From the NCBI GenBank assembly GCA_038093515.1, contig JBBPSI010000158.1:1-58056 (forward strand): a DNA stretch of 58,056 nucleotides. Reading direction: 5' to 3'. The notes under the pieces are model-generated. The model did not search any database. It had not been told where the DNA came from and was given only the letters and a program-made list of their open reading frames with translations. How positions within the stretch are numbered: the stretch's first letter is position 1; every line of letters starts with the position of its first letter. The translations under genes and the position numbers were made by a program. Origin of the DNA: Butyriboletus loyo. Lineage: Eukaryota; Basidiomycota; Agaricomycetes; Boletales; Boletaceae. Below are positions 1-54,605 of the stretch, piece after piece.

Positions 1-900
1 AGCATTGCTCCTATTGCTCTCCCATTCATAGGCTGTAAGTGGCTGTATTTGGAATGAGAATGGTGCTGATGAGCATTGCTCCTATTGCTCTCCCATTCAT
101 AGGCTGTAAGTGGCTGGATTTGGAATGAGAATGGTGCTGATGAGCATTGCTCCTATTGCTCTCCCATTCATAGGCTGTAAGTGGCTGGATTTGGAATGAG
201 AATGGTGCTGATGAGCATTGCTCCTATTGCTCTCCATTCATAGGCTGTAAGTGGCTGGTTGGAATAGAATGGTGCTGATGGGCATTGCTCCTATTGCTCT
301 CCCATTCATAGGCTGTAAGTGGCTGGATTTGGAATGAGAATGGTGCTGATGGTATTGCTCCTATTGCTCTCCCGTTCATAGGCTGTAAGTGGCTGGATTT
401 AGGAATGAGATGGTGCTGATGAGCATTGCTCCTATTGCTCTCCCATTCATAGGCTGTAAGTGGCTGGATTTGGAATGAGAATGGTGCTGATGAGCATTGC
501 TCCTATTGCTCTCCCATTCATAGGCTGTAAGTGGCTGGATTTGGAATGAGAATGGTGCTGATGAGCATTGCTCCTATTGCTCTCCCATTCATAGGCTGTA
601 AGTGGCTGGATTTGGAATGAGAATGGTGCTGATGAGCATTGCTCCTATTGCTCTCCCATTCATAGCCTGTAAGTGGCTGGATTTGGAATGAGAATGGTGC
701 TGATGAGCATTGCTCCTATTGCTCTCCCATTCATAGTGTGTAAGTGGCTGGATTTGGAATGAGAATGGTGCTGATGAGCATTGCTCCTATTGCTCTCCCA
801 TTCATAGGCTGTAAGTGGCTGGATTTGGAATGAGAATGGTGCTGATGAGCATTGCTCCTATTGCTCTCCCATTCATAGCATGTAAGTGATGTAATATGGA
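1..900. repeat. 71-bp tandem repeat array, about 13 units
   Basis: Near-identical 71-bp units begin at base 1 and run to about 900; a few are 68-70 bp because of small deletions. The unit contains CTGATGAGC, a pyrimidine-rich run, CATTCATAG, then GCT and GTAAGTGG. The three bases between AG and GT lie at 32, 103, 174, 244, 312, 382, 453, 524, 595, 666, 737, 808 and 879. They are GCT except CCT at 666, TGT at 737 and CAT at 879. Length changes fall in the intron-like part and not in the three-base part. The array is cut by the window edge, so its full copy number is unknown. Confidence 0.97.
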
Positions 901-2237
901 TTTGAAAGTGCTGTTAATGAGCTTCCTTCCCACTCTTCCATTGATAGAATGTAAGTGGTCTGATGTGGATTTAAAATGAAAATTCTGCTAACAAGTATTC
1001 TCCATGCTGCTCTTTCTTTGGCAGCATGTATGTGGTCTAATATGGACTCCTGGCCAGAGGCTGTTGCTGATTTGGTTCTGTCCTGTCTGCTTCTATGGCC
1101 ATTTGGATGCTAGTTTGTGAGCATCTTTGTATGCATGTGAAAATGTTGATTGCCAATTAATTCATGTTTGTTCCTTTTCTTGCTTTCTGGTTAACAGGCA
1201 GTGAGTCATTGACCTGACATTGGAGAAAGAATACAACTTATTTGCTAAATTTACTCTTCCTTCCAGGAGGTACATCACATGATATGTTGTTACAATGTGT
1301 ATTACTAATATATGCAACCTCTCATGTTTCCTTTCAAATAGAATGTAAGTGATTTCATTTAGAATTGAAATCTTCATTCTGCTCATGAAATTTATTTCAT
1401 TTCAAAATTTAATATAACCCTATCATTTCATAACTTCATATACTTACATAGCTGGTGAGTATTATCATGCTACTGTAATAGTTATCATCAGCTATGGATT
1501 GATATTCCTATAGGATGTAAGTTTATTCTTCCATGCAATATTATCTACATTTATGTATGCTTTATCCACATTTAGAAGGTAAGATATCTATGTGATTGTT
1601 TAAATTTGTACTCATAATTTGACTAGAGAGTCAGTTTTCAATTTGAAGATCTTTATACTGCTATTGATGTCATGCAGATTGTCACCAACCCTCAGTCCTC
1701 CCTGGTAAATCATTATCATTTGATTATACTATGTATTTCCTACAACAATTTCATCCATTTCAGAGTTCCCTTCAACCAACAGAGGCAAAGACCATGGTAT
1801 GTATGTGCAATCATGGAAATATATGTATTGTATTAACTCTTTATGTATTTCAGCTCAACAAGAGAACCAACACTGAGCTGAGAGACATTCTGCAACATGG
1901 CATTGGTAGGTTAATCCATTTTGAATTTTCATAACTTAAGTATTTTTATAGACTGTGTACTACTTCTTCAGTATTCCTTCACTCTGGTCCAAAACAAATC
2001 TGAAAATCCCTTTGCCTTAGCAGAAGAAAGGTATACAGCATCTGGAATATCTGCCCAGATATCAAAGAAACTGGATGAGATCTTATCCAACCATTTTGCC
2101 ACCAAATCTAAAAATGAAAAAGTGGACCTTGTCATGGACATAATCATGCAGCACCCTTTGTGTAGGTAGTGAAGTGACACAACTTTCTACATACTAACTT
2201 GTCTTATAGGATAGGCTGCATAGCTAAAATGCTATGA
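1..2237 (+). CDS. Microexon-chain gene, 5' end outside window
   Basis: I do not recognise the product. The 3' end is readable: exons 1678-1704 (27 nt), 1764-1796 (33 nt), 1854-1905 (52 nt), 1952-about 2165 and 2210-2237 join in one open frame that ends in TGA, with short GT-AG introns. The second last exon encodes a charged helical-looking segment (ENPFALAEERYTASG, then KKLDEILSNHF). Upstream, at least 22 splice-like sites follow a single pattern: AG, exactly three bases, then GTAAGT or a close variant. Decayed units give codons at 948, 1025, 1114, 1198, 1267, 1342, 1452, 1514 and 1576; the perfect array gives mostly GCT. All are 3 nt, so inclusion or skipping of any unit keeps the frame, and none is a stop codon in the frame set by the 3' exons. 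A CTRAY-like branch motif and a pyrimidine tract precede most acceptors. That these units are really spliced as exons is inference; they might be skipped as one long intron. Confidence 0.5.
901..1677 (+). repeat. Decayed repeat units keeping splice signals
   Basis: Units continue at spacings of 59-107 bp, but most of the sequence has diverged. What stays is AG-NNN-GT: AAT 948-950, CAT 1025-1027, TTT 1114-1116, GCA 1198-1200, GAG 1267-1269, AAT 1342-1344, CTG 1452-1454, GAT 1514-1516 and AAG 1576-1578. Branch-like CTAAC or CTAAT motifs are visible before several acceptors (for example near 987 and 1306). The selective retention of splice elements suggests function rather than plain satellite drift. 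That is an inference from the pattern. Confidence 0.65.
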
Positions 2238-3095
2238 CTTGTAGAATTTCTTATGATTTACTCCATGCATTCTTTCTCTTTTCCCACATCTGTACTGATA
2301 GTCTGGCCTGACCCAGAATCCTCCTTTTCTTTCTGTTTTTCCACAAAGTCCAACCTTTGTCACTTCCAAAGCATTCCTCAAAGCTCTTTAACATTCTGTC
2401 ACATGTCATTTCCCAGCCAATCACATATTTTCCTCCACAATCATATGATAGGCTGATTTCCCCTTTTGTTCATATCCTCTTTGGTCTGTGCAGTCTATCT
2501 ACATATAAAAACCCCTCATAGACTACTTGTAATCCCAAGCCAGATCTACTTGGGAATACATCCTTTTCTTGAACTCCTCTTGCATCTGTCATTCTAGAGA
2601 CTCTATCCTTCTTTGATTTAAATCCTTCCTAGAAGGTTGAGCTGTGACTAACACTCAGAATGAACCTTTCACTCTGGTGATCCAAATCCTCCTCAAGGTT
2701 AAGTATATGTCTTCATACTCATACTTAAAACCTGCTATCCAAGTCTATGCTTGTCCCCATCCAGGCTCAGCATAACATAATTAAGCTTAGCTTGGGGTGG
2801 TGACACTGCATGTACCTCGATGCCAAAGAGATGTCACATGTTTTGTGCTGGTTTTGCAATTGTCACACTGCAAGATACAAATATAATATCTCAATCTTGT
2901 CCCCACATATTCCTTTAGAGAAGTTTGGTTTTCGAGTGAGATGCACTTACTAGCAATTACATTACAGACCCTCCAGAACTGCAGGATAACTTGTGCAACA
3001 TGGGTTAAGGAGCACCAGTGCAGAAGTGCTATTCGACATAATAGCATGGCACTTTTTCAAGTTGCATTGATAGCAGCTGCCTGATGTAAATACAA
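2238..3095. other. AT-rich non-coding stretch, LTR-like part
   Basis: No convincing gene. From about 2290 to 2780 the sequence resembles a solo LTR: a CCAGCCAATCACAT motif, a TATA-like TATAAAAACCCC at about 2510 and a run of short TCTTTCT tracts, ending near GCATAACA. I could not define matching ends or a target duplication, so the LTR reading is weak. A minus-strand ORF at 2787-3047 has a cysteine pair (LQCDNCKTST) but no recognised family. Confidence 0.25.
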
Positions 3096-3437
3096 TCAAT
3101 TGATCCCCCTCACATCAGGCAACACTTGTTGGATCATCTCAGAAAGTAGTTCATCAAGGCTCCCTGTGAAAATCTTCTGCTTGAGAACTCGAAGCCTGTA
3201 AAGCAAAGTATGACCTACCTTGTCTCGTTCCCCTTGCGTCGAAAGTATGGCGGTCAACAATTTGGTCCTTGTGCCATTCTTGATCTTGGATAAGCTCGTC
3301 GATGAAGGTCGCTCCTCTGGACCTGTGATCGTCAGTTTGTCATCAGATGGGGCAGCTTTAGTGCAGCATTTGGACTTTGAGGTGCGGTCCTTGGCAACAG
3401 CCTGGAGGAGGACGGACGGGCATTCGTCTACAAGCAT
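3096..3437 (-). CDS. Possible gene fragment, unknown
   Basis: An open frame of 113 codons on the minus strand ends in an amphipathic-looking stretch (LDELLSEMIQQVLPDV). The opposite strand is also open over the same bases (3220-3816), so the strand is not certain. No domain is recognised. It could be the last exon of a decayed gene, since nothing convincing continues upstream of it. Confidence 0.2.
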   Translation of the reverse strand: MLVDECPSVLLQAVAKDRTSKSKCCTKAAPSDDKLTITGPEERPSSTSLSKIKNGTRTKLLTAILSTQGERDKVGHTLLYRLRVLKQKIFTGSLDELLSEMIQQVLPDVRGIN

Positions 3438-4246
3438 TGCAGAAAGAAGCTCACAGAAAGAAGCGCAGGTGTCTCAAATAATTACCCTAGTCGTTGATAG
3501 CATGCATGAATCACTCATCACGATGTTCACTCAGTTTCTTTGTCATCGCAAGCGGGAGCAACAACCCAGTACTGAAGAATGGCATTGTCACCATCAAACA
3601 CACACCTGCAAGCATTTATGTCGGGCCCACCTATATTGCTTCTTCTTCTCCATTGAATTCTCCACAAAATGGATTATTGAAACGTGCTCCTCTTCTTCCA
3701 TGCCAAGAAGTAAGAAGGTATGGAGCAGTCGGGGCTCCACCGGCTGCCGCGTTGTTGCTAAGGGAGTGTTTTGGCATGTACGCATGGCTCATTGCGTGAT
3801 GTGTACGCGAATTTGAGACCAGGAGAGTACGAGTCAGTCACTGGGCATGGACATGAAAATTGGCATGACGCGCTTGAGTTCAGCGACTTTGGCAAGATTG
3901 AGCGCAAGTTGGGTATGTCAATCAACCTGGAGCGTTGGCGATACACATTTGACCTTTTCAATAATCAAAAGCCCTCCACGGAGGAGCGTATCACTGGAAA
4001 GGTGGTCATCGAATTCTTTCGCAAAGATATAGAGTCAAGAGCCTGAGCCATTGATATGGTGCAACACCGTGGGAACATGCCAGATTCAGGTGGCTATCTA
4101 CACACCACCACGCTCTGCCCAATGTCCGCCCCGGAACTATGCACACACCTTGGCGATCTTCGAGCGGAATGCTTTAGGATCATCAAAATGCGGAACCTCG
4201 ACTTTCACTCACGTCCCATTCTGCAAACATAGCCGAACTTGGGGCT
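3438..4246 (+). other. Unresolved region with a plus-strand ORF
   Basis: The plus-strand frame at 3771-4046 reads as a plausible protein end (LRPGEYESVTGHGHENWHDA and later ITGKVVIEFFRKD) and stops at TGA. The frame before it, 3494-3799, is in another phase and no clean intron joins the two. I do not recognise the product. It may be a degraded or truncated gene. Confidence 0.2.
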
Positions 4247-4345
4247 CAACTACAAGACGTAGCCGACCCATCATCCAATCAGAACTCTCAAATAACCTGC
4301 GGTAGAGTAGTCAAGCGATAACGTTACGCCATGCCTTTGCAGATG
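4247..4345 (+). repeat. Dispersed repeat copy A
   Basis: This stretch matches the reverse complement of about 52278-52400: both share AGCCGACCC, then CCAATCAGAACTCTCAAA, GCGGTAGAGTA, TCAAGCGATAACGTTAC and CCTTTGCAGATG. The 52-kb copy has about 50 extra bases in the middle. No clear terminal inverted repeats were found. It lies about 140 bp before the start of the next gene. Confidence 0.75.
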
Positions 4346-4485
4346 CCTGGAAACACTCGAGTCTCGGGCGGATCAGCCGGTCTAATCCCCATACAAGTGA
4401 CAGCATCAGACTGTCAATTCTATCTGTGTGAAAATACCCTTCAAAACTCTGCGTAGCGTCTATTCCAGGAGCGCAACTTGATACC

Positions 4486-6611
4486 ATGACTACTGAAGAG
4501 AGCCCTTTGCTGGGAGACCAGCTTCACCCCGACGCGGACCCCGCGCGGCGCGCTCTCCCCACCGAGGATGTTTACAATCGCTTCAGCCGTGAACAGAAGC
4601 GAGTGATCCTTGCTATTGTGTCCCTCACAGGACTCGTTCCCAGTGCGTCTTACATTTTAATTCGACTTGTTTTGCGTTCGAATTCATTCTCGACCAGTGT
4701 TCGTCGGTGGCTGCTTTGTCCCGTCCATACCTCAAATCTCCATTGACCTCGATGCGACACCCGCCTCTGTGAGGTATGTCATTCAACGTATACCGTCACT
4801 TCTGCATCTTAAAGCTGGGTCCCCAGTCTAGGTGTAAGCCTGTCCGTGTTCGCAAGTGCCATTAGTGTCATGCTCTGGTCTGCATACACTTCGTACTGTA
4901 GGTCTTCACACGCCTTCTGTACCTCAGACATGCTTGTTGGCTAATTTTACCGGCGAGATGGCCGACGGGTGATATACCTCTGTGGAATGCCCTTTACAAT
5001 TATCGGTAGTTTCGCTGTCGCAGCGTCTACTGATATATACAGTCTGCTCTTCTGGCGCTTTGTACAGACATTTGGTTGTTCTGGCGGTTATGCTCTGGGA
5101 GCCGCCACCATCGGGGATATCTACAGAGTGGAAGAACGTGGGACTGCCATGGGCACTTTCCTTGGTGTGAGTCTACTCGCTATCATGGTTTGTCGTGGAC
5201 GATACCAGCGTTTATCACCCAGGCCACATTATTTGGACTCGCCATTGCACCACCCATCGGAGGTAAGTCGTCACCCTATTGTCCATTGTTTCTGATGGAT
5301 GTTTGATCCTCGTACGGTTATTCAGGTGCCTTGGCTGAGTACTGGTCCTGGCGCGGTTTCCAAGCTGCATTGGGCGTGTGGGGTGCCATACAGTTATTGT
5401 TGCTCGCTTTCTTCTTTCCCGAAACTGCTCACCCAGGTTCGCGCGGTATTGACAAAGAGCGGGGTCCAAAGAGGCTGTTCGTGTTCATCAACCCGTTCCG
5501 CTGCCTAACTTTCCTACGGAGCCCCAACATCATGGCGATCGTACGTACTTGTCACCTGGTGAATTTTGCCACTTGCGTAGTGTCCTGATTGGTCTATTTA
5601 GACATTGGCGAATACCTTTGCACTCATCTCGGACTTTGGTATGTTCCATGGACGTACATCTAACTGATAGTCACCCACTGACATCCGGGAGCCGGCAGTA
5701 CTATTGATTCCCATTGCATATACCATTGTACGTACGGAAAAGGCTTTACATATGTGTCTCCCGCTGACTTGTTCGAAGGGAGCTAAATATGGAATTACAA
5801 GCGAAGGCATGATCGGCGTGCTTTTCCTCCCAAATGGTCTTGGCAACTTTGGTACGTCCTCCCGGTCTTACCGGATGTCATATCCTCCTTACATGTACAG
5901 TCGGGGCCCCGATTGCCGGGCGTATCTCCGATGCGGTGGTGAGACGTGCGAAGGAAGAGCGCAAGGGTATATGGGTCCCAGAAGATCGCCTTCGTGCGGT
6001 GTGGCTCGGGGGGCTCGTGCTTATACCTGTCTCTGTCACGCTGGCCGGCTTCACGACGGCGTACGTCGATGGCACGGTCGGTCTGGTGATCAACCTCGTG
6101 TGCTTCTTCACCAATGGCATGGGCGTAAGTCGCTTCTCGGAAATGTCTGGCCCTGACGGAGCATTCATCAGGTGGATATGGTACTCACGCCGATTGGAGC
6201 TTATACCGTCGATGTTATGCCCTCTCGGAGTGCCGAGGTCGCGGCCGCTATCGCGTGAGTCTCTGTTCTATCCAAGCGCGTACTCTCGGTGATCGATGGG
6301 TCATTTGTTTGTGTCGTTTCATTATATCAGGGCTCTCCGATCACTGTTGCTTGCGCCTGTATCTGCATTGTTGATACCCTCCGTCGAAACCATCGGTGTC
6401 GCTGCGACCAATAGTATCTCAGGCATCTTGGTCTTGCTCGGATATTTGTATGTGCCTCGTGGTCGCTTGTGAGCGTGGATGTTGACGAGTGACCAGCCTG
6501 ATTTGGCTCACGATTCGATATGGTGCGCAGATGCGCGCATACGTCGACGTCGGATTCCCCAATTTCGACAATCAACCTTTGATCGGCGACGATACCACGG
6601 TTCAGGATTGA
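4486..6611 (+). CDS. MFS transporter, DHA1 (Qdr/Tpo-like)
   Basis: Thirteen exons joined by twelve introns (4643-4697, 4774-4814, 4898-4957, 5167-5222, 5263-5325, 5541-5601, 5639-5698, 5728-5778, 5852-5900, 6125-6171, 6255-6330, 6448-6496) give exactly 1458 nt, 485 residues. The start has the common acidic fungal leader MTTEESPLLGDQ. The first loop carries the MFS signature around YYGRRVIYLCG, followed by LLFWRFVQTFGCSGGYALG and GDIYRVEERGTAMG, as in DHA1 drug/proton antiporters. The second half has VGAPIAGRISDAVVRR. Twelve transmembrane helices are expected. It probably exports small molecules at the plasma membrane; the substrate cannot be read from sequence. Intron 2 (41 nt) is the least certain junction. 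Confidence 0.85.
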
Positions 6612-23839: not shown

Positions 23840-25759
23840 ATGTCTCTCTACACTCCCGTTTTCCCGTCCTTTCATGAGCCCAACGGCTCGCGGAAGGCCT
23901 TGCCTGGGAACACTTCGGCGGCTGCCACTACAAAGCAACAAAGCTACGCAGAGTTCCTACGCGATGTCCATCTGTTCCTCTCCACCCAAAACGACGTATT
24001 ATCGCCCCCTTCGCGTCCGAACTCCCCCTTGTTTGACCATCGTGTCCAAAAAGTGAGGGATGAGATACAGGACGTCTTTCACGCGACAGGAGGCGCGACC
24101 TCGAGTGGAAAGTGGACACGCGTTAGCCAAACCTTGAAGCTGGGATGTGTGAGGGGAAGGCCTTGGTCAGTACCCAAAGCTGATCCATGCACGCCCGAGG
24201 ACACGAATTGGATATTACCAGATGAAGAATCCGAATGGATCGAGTGGGAGAAAAAGGAGGAGGAGAGCAGACGGCTCAAGGCAAAGATCAACGTGTCTCA
24301 ACAGATTGACAGCACCGCTTCCGCCGTACCCGACACACAGAAACCCAACCACGCAATATTGGAAAGGCTGAGTCAATCCGACGCTGTGGCGCGCGAACGG
24401 CTCCCTCGGGGCGTCTCCCCTGCCACCCTTCGCTCTGCCAAGGAAAAGGTTAGGAAGTGGCAGGCGTCTGTGGTTTCCGAACCATGGCATCACACGACAA
24501 GGGGTTCTTCATCCACTTCTACCGGGGCAGTCGTAGCAGCAATTCCAGCCGAAGGCAAGACTGAAGGACCACAGCGAACCCGCACCCTTGATTTTGCAGT
24601 CGTAAAGCCAGCAGCAAGATCGATCATCAGCAAGAGGGGGAAAGGACCTCTGCCGCGTCCGGCCATCGCACCCACACCTTCGCGTAAGTCGAAGCCACCT
24701 GAACCCTCAAAAGCATCCAATGTACCAGAAGTCACAACGCCCGTTGATGCTGACAAACCTGGTTGCAAGCGACCCCTGAAAACGTCGCCCGTAAAGGATG
24801 ATAAGCCCAAGATTGTAGATATGCCGGAAACGGTGAGACACAGTTAGGTCATGCAACATGGGTTTTCTGATCCCGTCCTTCTGTAGCCGTTCCTTCCGCC
24901 ATCGTTCCCAGCGCATTTGGAGACGTCAACACCATTAGCTGATTCTGTGATGCTCATTCGCGCAAAGCCGTCACCGATATTGCCCATCTCTGAATCATCA
25001 TCAACGCCACCGCCGTCAACGCCTGCAAATCCTCCTGAGGATCGCCACTTTATACCGTCAGAGCCCCACGCTGCCAATGTGTCGTCTTCCCTACTACCAC
25101 AAATCAATACTGTACATCCAGGGAAACGACCTCGAGCGTTCTCCACGTCATTTGATGGTATTCCGGATGGCCCTCTTCTTACTCCACCGGCTAAGAAGTC
25201 ACGAACCCAGTCGCAGAAATCCGACCCCGTTTCCAAACATCTCGACATGACCCCAAATAGGGGTTTGGACATAGTACCTGACATTCGAGACGACGCCCGG
25301 GATCCGAGCTTTGGCGCAAATATAGACTCGCTTGGGGTGGTGGCAGGTTCACTTTTGACTTCCGGCAAAAAGGATCAGCTTGTCGCGGGTGCAGATGCAC
25401 AGGGTTTTCCTGAGAAGGTTCCGTCGCCAACGAAATCAGTCAAATCATACTTTTCTGCGCCGGATTCAGATTCTGCCGATTCACCGCTGAAAGCTAACTT
25501 GTTACTAGAATCTCCGGTCAGTCCTATGCTCTCGTACGCTCAAAACCCGAGTGGCTTCCTCCCTCAAATTGCGTCAACTCAAATTGGGAAGGTGTCCCCT
25601 ACTGCTGATCGGACGAGCAACGGCATCTTTGGGGTGGGCTATAGCTCTCAGTTTGATGTTGAAAGGCACGTGGATCGTGTCAGCGAGCTGCTGGAAAAGG
25701 ACGTCGACTTTGATGGGTGGTTGCGGGACATGCGGACGGTCAGAACGAGCCAAGATTAA
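23840..25759 (+). CDS. Unknown Ser/Pro-rich 621-residue protein
   Basis: Two exons (23840-24832, 24887-25759) give 1866 nt. The open frame goes back to 23765, but ATG 23840 (MSLYTPVFPSFHEPNG) is the more natural start. An N-terminal ordered part (YAEFLRDVHLFLSTQNDVL and DHRVQKVRDEIQDVFH) is followed by WILPDEESEWIEWEKKEEE. The middle is disordered, with patches of basic residues and PPAKKSRTQ, a possible nuclear localisation signal. A C-terminal block (SSQFDVERHVDRVSELLEKD, then FDGWLRDM) looks conserved. I do not recognise a family. The gene is just upstream of shugoshin on the same strand, about 220 bp apart. Confidence 0.75.
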
Positions 25760-30930: not shown

Positions 30931-33584
<2,654 letters not shown>

Positions 33585-52640: not shown

Positions 52641-52809
52641 GAAAAGTTCGATGGACGACATGTTTAAGCTCCGCTTTAAATATCGGACATGCCCGAACAC
52701 AGCATATTTCCAAATTAAGAGTTGTCAGGGGCACTGCCTATGTGTGGCTGCTTTGAGTTCCGCTTTAAACTATCGGACGCACCCGGTGCACGATCGGCCC
52801 TAAGTGTTT

Positions 52810-52900
52810 TTGACTACACTTTTGGTACACTTTTGGTACACTTTTTTACTACACTTTTGGTACACTTTTTTACTGCACTTTTGGTACACTTTTGGTACAC
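52810..52900. repeat. ACACTTTTGGT short tandem repeats
   Basis: Seven or more copies of TACACTTTTGG or the shorter TACACTTTTTTAC follow one another. They lie in the 5' leader of the transposase gene. Confidence 0.85.
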
Positions 52901-53020
52901 CTGTTGTTGCAAATTAAAACTCCACTTAGAATTATTACCAAAAAAGGCAAAAACATCGGTCAGATATACCAACCCCCTTATCTAGCCTGTTCCCTTGTTT
53001 CCAGCCCATCCCCTCATAAA

Positions 53021-54605
53021 ATGCCCAGGCCCTCAGCACGTCAGGAGGCTTTGAGGCTCCTTGAAGGAGCTTTGAACAGGGTTAATACAGCACAAACCAT
53101 GGAAATCTTGAATCAAATCTTGCTTCAAATTGAGGTTGACTCTGATTCTGCCAGTGGTTCTGATGCCACTTATTCTTCATATACCCCATCTTCACCCACC
53201 ACCCCATCTACCCCACTCTCCTATTCAACATCAGCTTCTGGCCAATCTAACACTCCTTTCTTTCAATCAGAGGAAGTGGTTAGGTTTCAAAGTGCAATCC
53301 AAGCAGCAATTGATGAAGTAGAACAGGCTCGTGTTCTTCACTCTCATATCCAAACAACCCATGCACCACAGATTCACCTTCTCAAAGAGTGGAAAATGGA
53401 CCGCCCATGGCTTTTTCGCCGCAAGCTTTGAGTATCTCCTGAAGTCTTTGCTCAGCTGGTTGAGAGAATTCATCCTCACCCCATTTTCCACACAAGCAGC
53501 CTTCATGACTCTGGTTCTGATGGCATGCCTCTTCCAACCTCTCATCCTGCTAATCAGCAATTGCCTGTCTGGTTCCAGCTTGCCATTTTCTTGAATGGTG
53601 CAGGTCACTATGGGAATGCTGCAACTTCACAAGATATGGCAGAATGGGCAGGTGTTGCTGTTGGTACAATCCATAACTGTTACAAACGTGTTATGCTTTC
53701 ACTCTTGCATTTGCATGATGAAGCTATACACTTTGATCCTATCAATTGTGAAGAAGACCATGCAGAAAAAGAAAGGGCAAAAAATTGGGTTGAGGCTAGA
53801 TCTATTCCAGCATGGAGAGGGGGTTTTCTATGTGTTGATGGAACAACCTTCAATTTCTTCCAGAAGCCAGGACTTCATGGTGAGGTCTTCTTTGACAGAA
53901 AGTCAAGATACTCTGTAACAAATCAGGTTGGTTTCAATTCTTTTTCAATTATAGATACTTACTATATTTCAGGTTGTCATCCTCCCCCACAATCTAAAGA
54001 TTGTGGACTATGCAATTGGTCTTCCAGGAAGCATTCATGATGCCAGTGCTTTCCAACACACTCGTGTTGCTCATCATCCTAATCAATTCTTTGGTGCCAA
54101 TGAGTGGCTTTGGGCTGATTCAGCCTATTCCAGTCAGACTTGGTGTGTTACACCATTCAAGAGACCTGTTGGAGGAAGTCTTGGACCTGACAAGAGAACA
54201 TTCAATAATTATTTATCATCAGTAAGGATTCTATCTCTTTATTCTTTGACTTGACTTTAATAGTTGCAGATACGGGTTCGAACTGAGCATCTCTATGGTT
54301 CCCTCAAAGGCCGTTTCCAATCACTTCTGGATCTGCGCTTCCGAATTCAAACACAAGCCAATCTGGACTATGCAACTACATGGATTCGCTGCTGCTTGAT
54401 TCTCCATAATCTGATTGTTGACACTGAGAAAGAGCTTGGATTGAATAGCTCAATGTCAGACTTTGAACAGGAGTATCAAAGGCAAGGGCAGGATAGGGAC
54501 TTGGAGAATGAGGAGGAAGGACCAGAGTTGAATGATGGCCTTGCTACATCAACAGGACAGGCATTCAGACAGCAAATCATGAATACTTTGTTGCAGAACA
54601 TATAG
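53021..54605 (+). pseudogene. Harbinger DDE transposase, one stop
   Basis: Exons 53021-53926, 53973-54221 and 54270-54605 form one frame of 497 codons, interrupted only by TGA at 53429-53431 (codon 137). The N-terminus is MPRPSARQEALRLLEGALNR with a Ser/Thr-rich linker. The DDE_Tnp_4 core follows: a helix-turn-helix-like AEWAGVAVGTIHNCYKRVM, FLCVDGTTFNFF (first Asp, about residue 272), GLPGSIHDASAF, EWLWADSAYS (about 351) and RTEHLYGSLKGRF (Glu, about 390). The stop lies where the reading frame continues smoothly on both sides, so a single base change (CGA to TGA is the simplest) would explain it. The rest shows no damage, which points to recent inactivation. In active elements this protein cuts and pastes the DNA together with the second protein. 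Confidence 0.88.

Follow-up and report, generated by a model that had tools for sequence, protein, structure and literature searches.

Chains of predicted one-codon exons, probably duplicated together with their introns, in a GTPase gene family of Butyriboletus loyo

Results

A chain of three-nucleotide units at the start of a contig

We analysed a 58,056-bp stretch of the Butyriboletus loyo genome, hereafter the window, which covers positions 1-58056 of contig C158 (JBBPSI010000158.1) in a 30.3-Mb assembly of 420 contigs (GCA_038093515.1). The contig begins inside a tandem array in which each unit joins a short intron-like stretch to exactly three bases flanked by splice sites. The pattern is real and far beyond chance. 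We propose, with a probability of roughly 0.83, that it belongs to a gene family whose hypervariable linker is encoded by one-codon exons that have been copied along with their introns. The start of the window would then hold the 3' half of one member of a multicopy Boletales gene family, in which a linker connects a P-loop GTPase to a C-terminal domain, and the linker would be encoded by a chain of 3-nucleotide (nt) exons, each one codon in phase 0, between introns mostly of 60-80 nt. What points to this reading, at the level of sequence, is the chain itself, its phase, its near-constant exon length of 3, the conservation of its splice signals, the lack of stop codons, and an excess of change at codon positions 1 and 2.

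Read site by site, positions 1-1677 hold 23 AG-NNN-GT units, 13 near-identical and 10 diverged (Table 1), each consisting of a pyrimidine tract, AG, three bases, and then a GTAAGT-like donor. The 13 near-identical triplets are spaced 68-71 nt apart, and Tandem Repeats Finder on positions 1-888 returned a period of 71 (12.6 copies, 96%). A previous reading of the letters alone (the sequence-only reading) had also counted 13 near-identical units with this period; it had listed nine diverged units, which do carry splice elements but number ten. It had further stated that no triplet is a stop codon in the frame of the downstream exons, which is true of all 23 in the window and of the triplets collected across the family (see below), and that every middle piece is exactly one codon and any number of units is frame-neutral, with which the longer copies agree, a few off-length units excepted. 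By eye, the last nine diverged units preserve AG and the length of 3 across 11 loci, and the donor GT is preserved except for a GC in locus L040. The triplets in most copies are highly varied, unlike the repeated GCT of the window.

Two local details of the array may be mentioned here. The GC in L040 (C8) belongs to the unit AAT, whose donor GCAAGT is possibly that of a GC-AG intron. An overlapping decoy, CAG-TGA-GTCATT at 1199, is matched by a similar site in the closer copies, whereas the distant C6 and C395 do not have it.

Predicted exon length is nearly constant

Five further copies and the window were parsed by splice dynamic programming with hand-set weights, leaving exon length free between 1 and 200 nt; C337, C111, and the second C8 locus, for which the stretch read has no 3' end, stood outside this analysis. 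Exons of 3 nt accounted for 44/44 on C6, 56/59 on C149, 39/41 on C46, 51/54 and 41/43 in the first and second copies on C159, and 21/22 in the window. Block-shuffled controls gave this length for 0-2.8% of exons, and reversed and reverse-complemented sequences for none; in that control run, which had a slightly different end rule, the real sequences scored 41/41, 56/59, 39/41, and 8/9. The diverged part of the window alone yielded 3 nt for 8 of 9 exons versus none of the 128 exons that 30 block shuffles produced, the ninth being read as 30 nt at a unit with the weak donor GTACAT. Two long calls common to C149, C46, and both C159 copies correspond, by alignment to C6 and C75 and by our own reading, to 3-nt exons behind AAG acceptors. 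Once these are counted in, C46 and the second C159 copy have chains clean from end to end, of 41 and 43 predicted one-codon exons, next to the 44 of C6. With the acceptor motif as anchor instead, the length was exactly 3 nt in 208/211 units, and their intron lengths vary.

Splice signals are retained where units have diverged

A branch-like CTRAY motif lies 12-50 nt upstream of the 3' splice site in 271 of 405 introns versus 61 in shuffles, its A most commonly 33-34 nt before the intron end, and the donor is GTAAGT in 321 of the 405. We then asked how these elements fare between copies, given the expectation in the sequence-only reading that AG-NNN-GT should be better conserved than the rest of the unit. 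Nine conserved units were compared across four loci (six pairs); AG and GT were identical in 18/18, versus 54-84% identity at other intron positions. Triplet identity in the five distant pairs was 59-81% versus 54-63% for the other intron positions. The expectation thus held fully for the splice sites and modestly for the triplet sequence in distant pairs, and failed for the triplet sequence in the one close pair. Constraint on the triplets thus bears on their length and, to a modest degree only, on their sequence.

The chain lies between a GTPase and a C-terminal domain

The array had been taken for the 5' part of a gene. This does not stand: the contig start cuts the array, and GTPase exons lie upstream of the chain in the longer copies on C46, C149, C6, and the second copy on C159. 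In C46 and C149 (two of three copies tried), seven upstream exons have a summed length divisible by 3 and yield an open frame of ~380 amino acids (aa), which ends SWFPHTK and enters the chain in phase 0; exon 4 of this model ended at an early GT, 21 nt short, with the frame unaffected. Motifs typical of P-loop GTPases are GxxxxGKT, DxxG, and TKxD. The Pfam domain MMR_HSR1 was found in copy C337 (1.4e-5, 25.6 bits, cut-off 21.9), and the window itself is without a GTPase. A search with the GTPase protein returned 1141 relatives at E <= 0.001, the best being 68% to Butyriboletus roseoflavus; all comparisons with relatives below concern the 120 listed, and those among them that are named are Boletales. 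By its motifs and similarity, the family is assignable to the P-loop GTPases (MMR_HSR1-like) of Boletales. A search of IMG/VR with P0001 found no relative.

A structure model of one relative, P0005, has a mean predicted local distance difference test (pLDDT) score of 80.1; in it, the short linker lies within a helix that follows the GTPase. Compared with PDB, dynamin-like, IRG, G-alpha, and EngB structures were best among the 50 matches listed, at query template modelling (TM) scores of 0.22-0.37, too low to support a statement on function. To give the GTPase a role in immunity or allorecognition would thus be speculation.

Downstream of the array, the sequence-only reading had predicted exons of 27 and 33 nt followed by an in-frame stop. 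Both exons are there, and the gene end has two further ones (Table 1). The C-terminal frame leaves the chain in phase 0, and the last exon occurs in 12 loci of the genome with internal stops in 0/12 over the part searched. The 109-aa C-terminus matched P0013 (E 4e-14) and P0005 (E 7e-15) by BLASTP; the relatives that carry it came from the GTPase protein search. Direct homologue searches with the C-terminus gave 0 of 30 candidates at E <= 10 and 0 of 3 at E <= 1, probably because the search needs shared five-residue words and the last exon was too short in the query. C-terminus models were obtained for two of nine loci.

Over GTPase pieces of 95 codons, four cross-subfamily pairs had synonymous divergence (dS) of 0.40-0.55 and nonsynonymous divergence (dN) of 0.076-0.093, and dN was below dS in all eight pairs computed (these four and four closer ones). 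Over 45 codons of the C-terminus, dS across subfamilies was 0.58-0.75 and dN 0.26-0.35. A decayed satellite in pseudogenes, that is, a minisatellite unit with splice-like sites by chance, would agree with the high copy number, with contigs that start or end inside arrays, and with a few off-length units. We find it hardly credible, given the 12 open C-terminal exons, the low dN of the GTPase in each of the eight pairs, and splice sites that are retained where the remainder of the unit has diverged.

Copies of the array occur across the genome

A two-unit DNA search located arrays besides that of the window on at least C254, C164, C46, C159 (two places), C149, C111, C337, C8 (two places), C411, C6, C395, and C75. 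In total, at least 13 contigs other than that of the window carry similar arrays. Uninterrupted runs reach 37 units, with varied triplets. A strict three-unit pattern had 222 matches in the 30.3-Mb genome versus 11 for a reversed-pattern control; 216 of the 222 fall inside the loci read, which indicates that the chain is largely confined to the GTPase family, and of the remaining six, at least two neighbour a further GTPase copy on C46. Run against the entire IMG/VR collection, this three-unit pattern hit 32 stretches, 30 once and 2 twice, which we take as chance. A single-unit pattern gave 5 matches versus 8 in its control and missed arrays. No chain was found at the distant GTPase loci on C20, C31, C218, C385, and C209, each with 0 or 1 isolated 3-nt site; the C20 locus looks degraded by eye.

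C254 (L035 1403-5809) is 98% identical to window positions 1601-6000 over 4.4 kb, comprising the gene end and 3.8 kb past the stop, and the arrays of the two carry different triplets. Window positions 24000-25500 are single-copy, which makes a segmental duplication a likelier source of this likeness than a second haplotype. Past the homologue of window position 2444, eight copies (L036-L040 and L042-L044) share a TATTGAGAACTGGAATAATG-like sequence that the window and C254 are without, and thus the flanks differ between family members. A mobile element as carrier was considered and rejected, as the several-kb shared flanks end at different points; inverted ends, sought in one gene copy, gave only 8-9-base matches, at chance level.

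Triplets lack stops and vary at two codon positions

To describe the codons of the family, we collected 456 triplets, which are all pattern matches within chosen bounds and may contain some non-chain units. Loci L046 (C395) and L047 (C75) share an identical 13-unit run and were counted as one locus read twice: L046 is included in the 456-triplet set, in the 346 triplets left after deduplication, in the unit-pair comparisons, and in the locus-pair alignment, and excluded from the parsimony counts, with or without held-out columns, and the T-first test (344 triplets) and from the branch-point and donor counts. Stop codons number 0/346 against 8.9 expected (column-permutation P 5e-5, approximate). 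In agreement, T comes first in 12 of 107 NAT or NGT triplets versus 0 of 83 NAA, NGA, or NAG triplets (Fisher 0.0013, also approximate).

Neighbouring units differ chiefly in their codons. In 498 within-locus unit pairs whose introns are at most 6% different (mean 2.2%), triplet positions 1, 2, and 3 differ in 58%, 63%, and 0%. With the tested column held out of the selection, the two variable triplet columns scored 0.59 and 0.65 versus an intron maximum of 0.28 in the 72-nt class, and 0.65 and 0.50 versus 0.21 in the 68-nt class. For a parsimony analysis, we took 89 units with a 72-nt intron and no more than 16 differences from the consensus, and built the tree from intron columns only. The following triplet required 32, 35, and 0 steps and the preceding triplet 36, 46, and 1, whereas intron columns required 1.6 on average and 10 at most; when half of the columns were held out in 12 repeats, the following triplet required 31-38, 31-41, and 0 steps, with intron means of 1.5-3.0 and a maximum of 18. 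Hence, between near-identical units, codon positions 1 and 2 vary 10-25 times more than intron columns and position 3 hardly ever, the third base being T in 89/89 units of this commonest class. The rate at position 3 fits that of the intron, and fast change is limited to the positions that alter the amino acid.

This pattern is as would be expected of diversifying selection on one-codon exons, and a mutational process acting on two bases is its rival. Under it, two bases at each junction of units would be untemplated or prone to mutation, with splicing of the chain as we propose. Variation concentrated in two adjacent bases in units otherwise ~2% different, together with the invariant third T of the commonest class, is what such a process would leave. 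We consider it unlikely nonetheless: stop-forming triplets are absent, the third base does vary (T, A, or G) in C6 and C395 and never makes a stop, and conserved triplets persist at the 3' end of the chain.

Near-identical introns next to diverse triplets also give a first impression of an introner-like invasion, in which mobile intron copies would have split an old coding stretch between its codons and the triplets would be old coding sequence. Insertion every three bases in a single phase is implausible, however, copies differ by whole units, and the window has nine consecutive GCT units, which together make this origin very improbable. No relative with a contiguous linker equal to the concatenated triplets was recognised among the 120 listed. 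The one-codon exon chain and the satellite-like joint gain of introns and codons that the sequence-only reading had put forward are supported by the longer copies, through the frame from the upstream GTPase, the comparison of copies, stop avoidance, and the codon-position pattern, a few off-length units excepted.

Relatives of the GTPase carry variable linkers

A WFP motif stands near the end of 66 of the 120 listed relatives. The residue right after WFPHxx is V in 35 of the 66, against an overall V frequency of 5.8%, and 26 continue with VR or VS, as GTAAGR, GTAAGT, or GTGAGT would be translated. These endings read as though translation had run on into the first donor of the chain. Moreover, 57 of the 66 end within 45 residues past the motif and nine extend more than 80, which suggests that annotations of Boletales GTPases often stop at the first chain intron and omit the variable linker and the C-terminal domain.

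Four JGI entries on 1.5-1.85-kb contigs (P0005, P0013, P0058, and P0076) run unbroken from the GTPase through a variable linker to the C-terminus, and their linkers, at the position of the chain, differ in length and sequence. We inspected eight hand-picked linkers for residue avoidance: P0076 and P0092 have 26 and 22 consecutive residues without E, K, M, Q, or W, as from NNT codons (uncorrected p 0.0012 and 0.0034), and the six others have runs of 7-14 residues. P0076 after WFPHIW and the tail of P0092 are rich in D, L, Y, R, and V, again as from NNT codons, and by eye these JGI proteins resemble Suillus entries. The two linkers hint at expression of codon-chain linkers in other Boletales.

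P0005 has a short linker, QERFEVFREFVFEFANLDRA, which resembles only the conserved chain ends REKFLIQDDF and FA(R)NLD. In end-anchored windows, chosen after an unanchored test, shuffles reached the observed likeness in 6-163 of 20,000 when the 3' ends of five copies were used and in 7-90 of 20,000 with the 5' ends of three, a set that excludes C6. If real, this likeness would indirectly support translation of the conserved microexon codons and would show that the hypervariable middle can be absent.

The last point bears on a further alternative, namely that the whole array is skipped or spliced by a ratchet, the units being recursive stepping stones in one 3-5-kb intron and the triplets transient or never in the mRNA. 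The spliceosome copes badly with 3-nt exons, the donors are strong, P0005 has residues like the two conserved ends without the long variable middle, and a zero-length TAG/GTAATT site precedes the chain. Stepping stones, however, have no need of a fixed 3-nt length, of avoided stops, or of extra change at two positions, and P0076, P0092, P0013, and P0058 have variable linkers at the position of the chain. Ratchet sites are AG/GT sequences that abut directly with no exon between; in the anchored units of the chain, three bases lie between in 208/211. We therefore regard this alternative as improbable. The TAG/GTAATT sites are worth noting in their own right: one is present in the intron that leads into the first one-codon exon of 7/7 copies examined (Table 1), and these sites have zero exon length and are ratchet-like (recursive).

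Other features of the window

Coordinates of the array, the gene end, and the TAG/GTAATT sites are collected in Table 1. Elsewhere in the window, tandem TACACTTTTGG-like repeats at 52807-54040 adjoin open frames that presumably resemble a fungal transposase; the frame 53432-54037 had no Pfam match at E 0.01. A partial protein kinase on the minus strand at 31847-32413 (Pfam Pkinase 1.3e-5, 25.2 bits, cut-off 31.7) is unrelated to the array.

Table 1. Positions of the predicted chain exons and gene end in the window, and of TAG/GTAATT sites at other loci
Feature	Position	Strand	Content	Remark
Near-identical tandem array	1..888	+	unit = intron + one predicted 3-nt exon, 68-71 bp	truncated by contig start
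13 predicted one-codon exons, near-identical part	32..881	+	GCT x9, CCT, TGT, GCT, CAT in order	same architecture at other loci
Near-identical exons 1-7	32-34, 103-105, 174-176, 244-246, 312-314, 382-384, 453-455	+		
Near-identical exons 8-13	524-526, 595-597, 666-668, 737-739, 808-810, 879-881	+		
10 predicted one-codon exons, diverged part	948..1629	+		last nine alignable across 11 loci
Diverged exons 1-5	948-950, 1025-1027, 1114-1116, 1198-1200, 1267-1269	+	AAT, CAT, TTT, GCA, GAG	
Diverged exons 6-10	1342-1344, 1452-1454, 1514-1516, 1576-1578, 1627-1629	+	AAT, CTG, GAT, AAG, AGA	
27-nt exon	1678..1704	+	IVTNPQSSL	phase 0; PQSS(I/L) present too in relative P0013
33-nt exon	1764..1796	+	SSLQPTEAKTM	phase 0
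52-nt exon	1854..1905	+	LNKRTNTELRDILQHGI + one base	
Last exon, C-terminal domain	1952..2169	+	DCVLLLQYSFTLVQNKSENPFALAEERYTASG...HPLCR + stop TAG	start set by comparison with relative
TAG/GTAATT sites (oriented loci)	L037 (C159) 4358, L050 3929, L042 2411, L043 3329, L036 705, L045 4753, L047 6188			

Discussion

How the chain may work and evolve

We suggest that the spliceosome would take out the short introns one at a time, by intron definition. It may rely on strong GTAAGT donors because a 3-nt exon gives U1 almost nothing to bind. Unequal exchange of whole intron-plus-codon units would lengthen or shorten the array, always in frame, and homogenise the introns, and diversifying selection would maintain or create different codons; the outcome would be a hypervariable linker on a conserved GTPase.

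Several observations weigh against this reading. First, four off-length units (1 nt on C111, 2 nt on C149, 5 nt on C254, and 1 nt in the first C159 copy) would break the reading frame if neither skipped nor due to assembly errors, some units depend on AAG acceptors or weak donors (GTACAT, GTCAGT, and GC in one copy), and the weights behind the exon-length counts were set by hand. Second, the triplets of conserved units are only modestly above intron identity in distant copies, and in the close pair of the window and C149 they are 81% identical versus 84% for the other intron positions. Third, units share descent, and thus the P values above are approximate. Fourth, dN is about equal to dS for the C-terminal exon in two close pairs, which implies that constraint is not required on every copy. 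Last, the four JGI entries only look like cDNA, and unanchored alignment of microexon peptides to the linkers of relatives was weak, with a best result of 11/2000 shuffles and 66-1423/2000 in the other 14 comparisons; the end-anchored windows were chosen after it, with C6 left out of the 5' set.

More tentatively, we can picture a receptor-like family of mushroom GTPases in which the linker is written one codon per exon and introns serve as the units of recombination, such that exchange between near-identical introns adds, removes, or swaps whole codons and leaves the frame intact. If this were true, skipping any set of units would stay in frame, and evolution, possibly also splicing in individual cells, would draw on a library of codons. 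That library would be largely NNT, which makes no stops, and its purpose might be comparable to that of variable immune or allorecognition receptors.

Comparison with known systems

Titles and abstract openings in the open literature, with subscription papers and preprints mostly outside it, revealed no array of one-codon exons. If the chain is spliced as predicted, we know of no more extreme run of consecutive minimal exons. Splicing of this kind would make the handling by the spliceosome of at least 40 exons below the U1 footprint a testable question, would offer a route to ask how introns arise jointly with codons, and would make it testable whether diversifying selection works via single-codon exons.

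The coding region of schistosome micro-exon genes (MEGs) is described as largely very small symmetrical exons, whose alternative splicing yields a pool of similar proteins (PMC4350168). The family in Butyriboletus loyo would resemble them in having very small symmetrical exons, many per gene: its 41-59 predicted chain exons are nearly all 3 nt in phase 0, and they encode the linker only, not the GTPase or the C-terminus. Unlike in MEGs, every chain exon is a single codon, exon plus intron forms a tandem unit, and the gene is that of a fungal GTPase. Aphid bicycle genes are presented as a fast-evolving family with many small internal exons of a single phase, almost all phase 2, and megacycle as one gene with more than 100 microexons (PMC9168663). 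The two systems share many small internal exons of one phase; the phase of the chain is 0, however, in contrast to the phase 2 of bicycle genes, and the cited portion of that account describes no 3-nt array or intron-plus-codon satellite.

Exons of 1-3 nt are reported to be spliced in Drosophila hth and in plant APC11 and VPS55, with CAG and GTGAGT or GTAAGT bounding the internal exons of hth and GTRAGT donors at the 1-nt VPS55 exon (PMC7392893, PMC8831610). Those are single exons or small groups, unlike the arrays with hypervariable codons found here. The same difference applies to RPS24, reportedly a further case of a very small exon. Xlr2 of Trichoderma has a functional microexon, stated to be the first described in filamentous fungi (PMC11121469); there it is one regulated microexon, whereas here it is a chain. 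Finally, the chain is like fungal stwintrons in that consecutive splicing would be required and in that some stwintrons occur as sequence-similar copies. As stwintrons are characterised in the sources at hand, an intron interrupts the splice element of another, whereas in our aligned units donor and acceptor are each uninterrupted and an exonic codon separates neighbouring introns.

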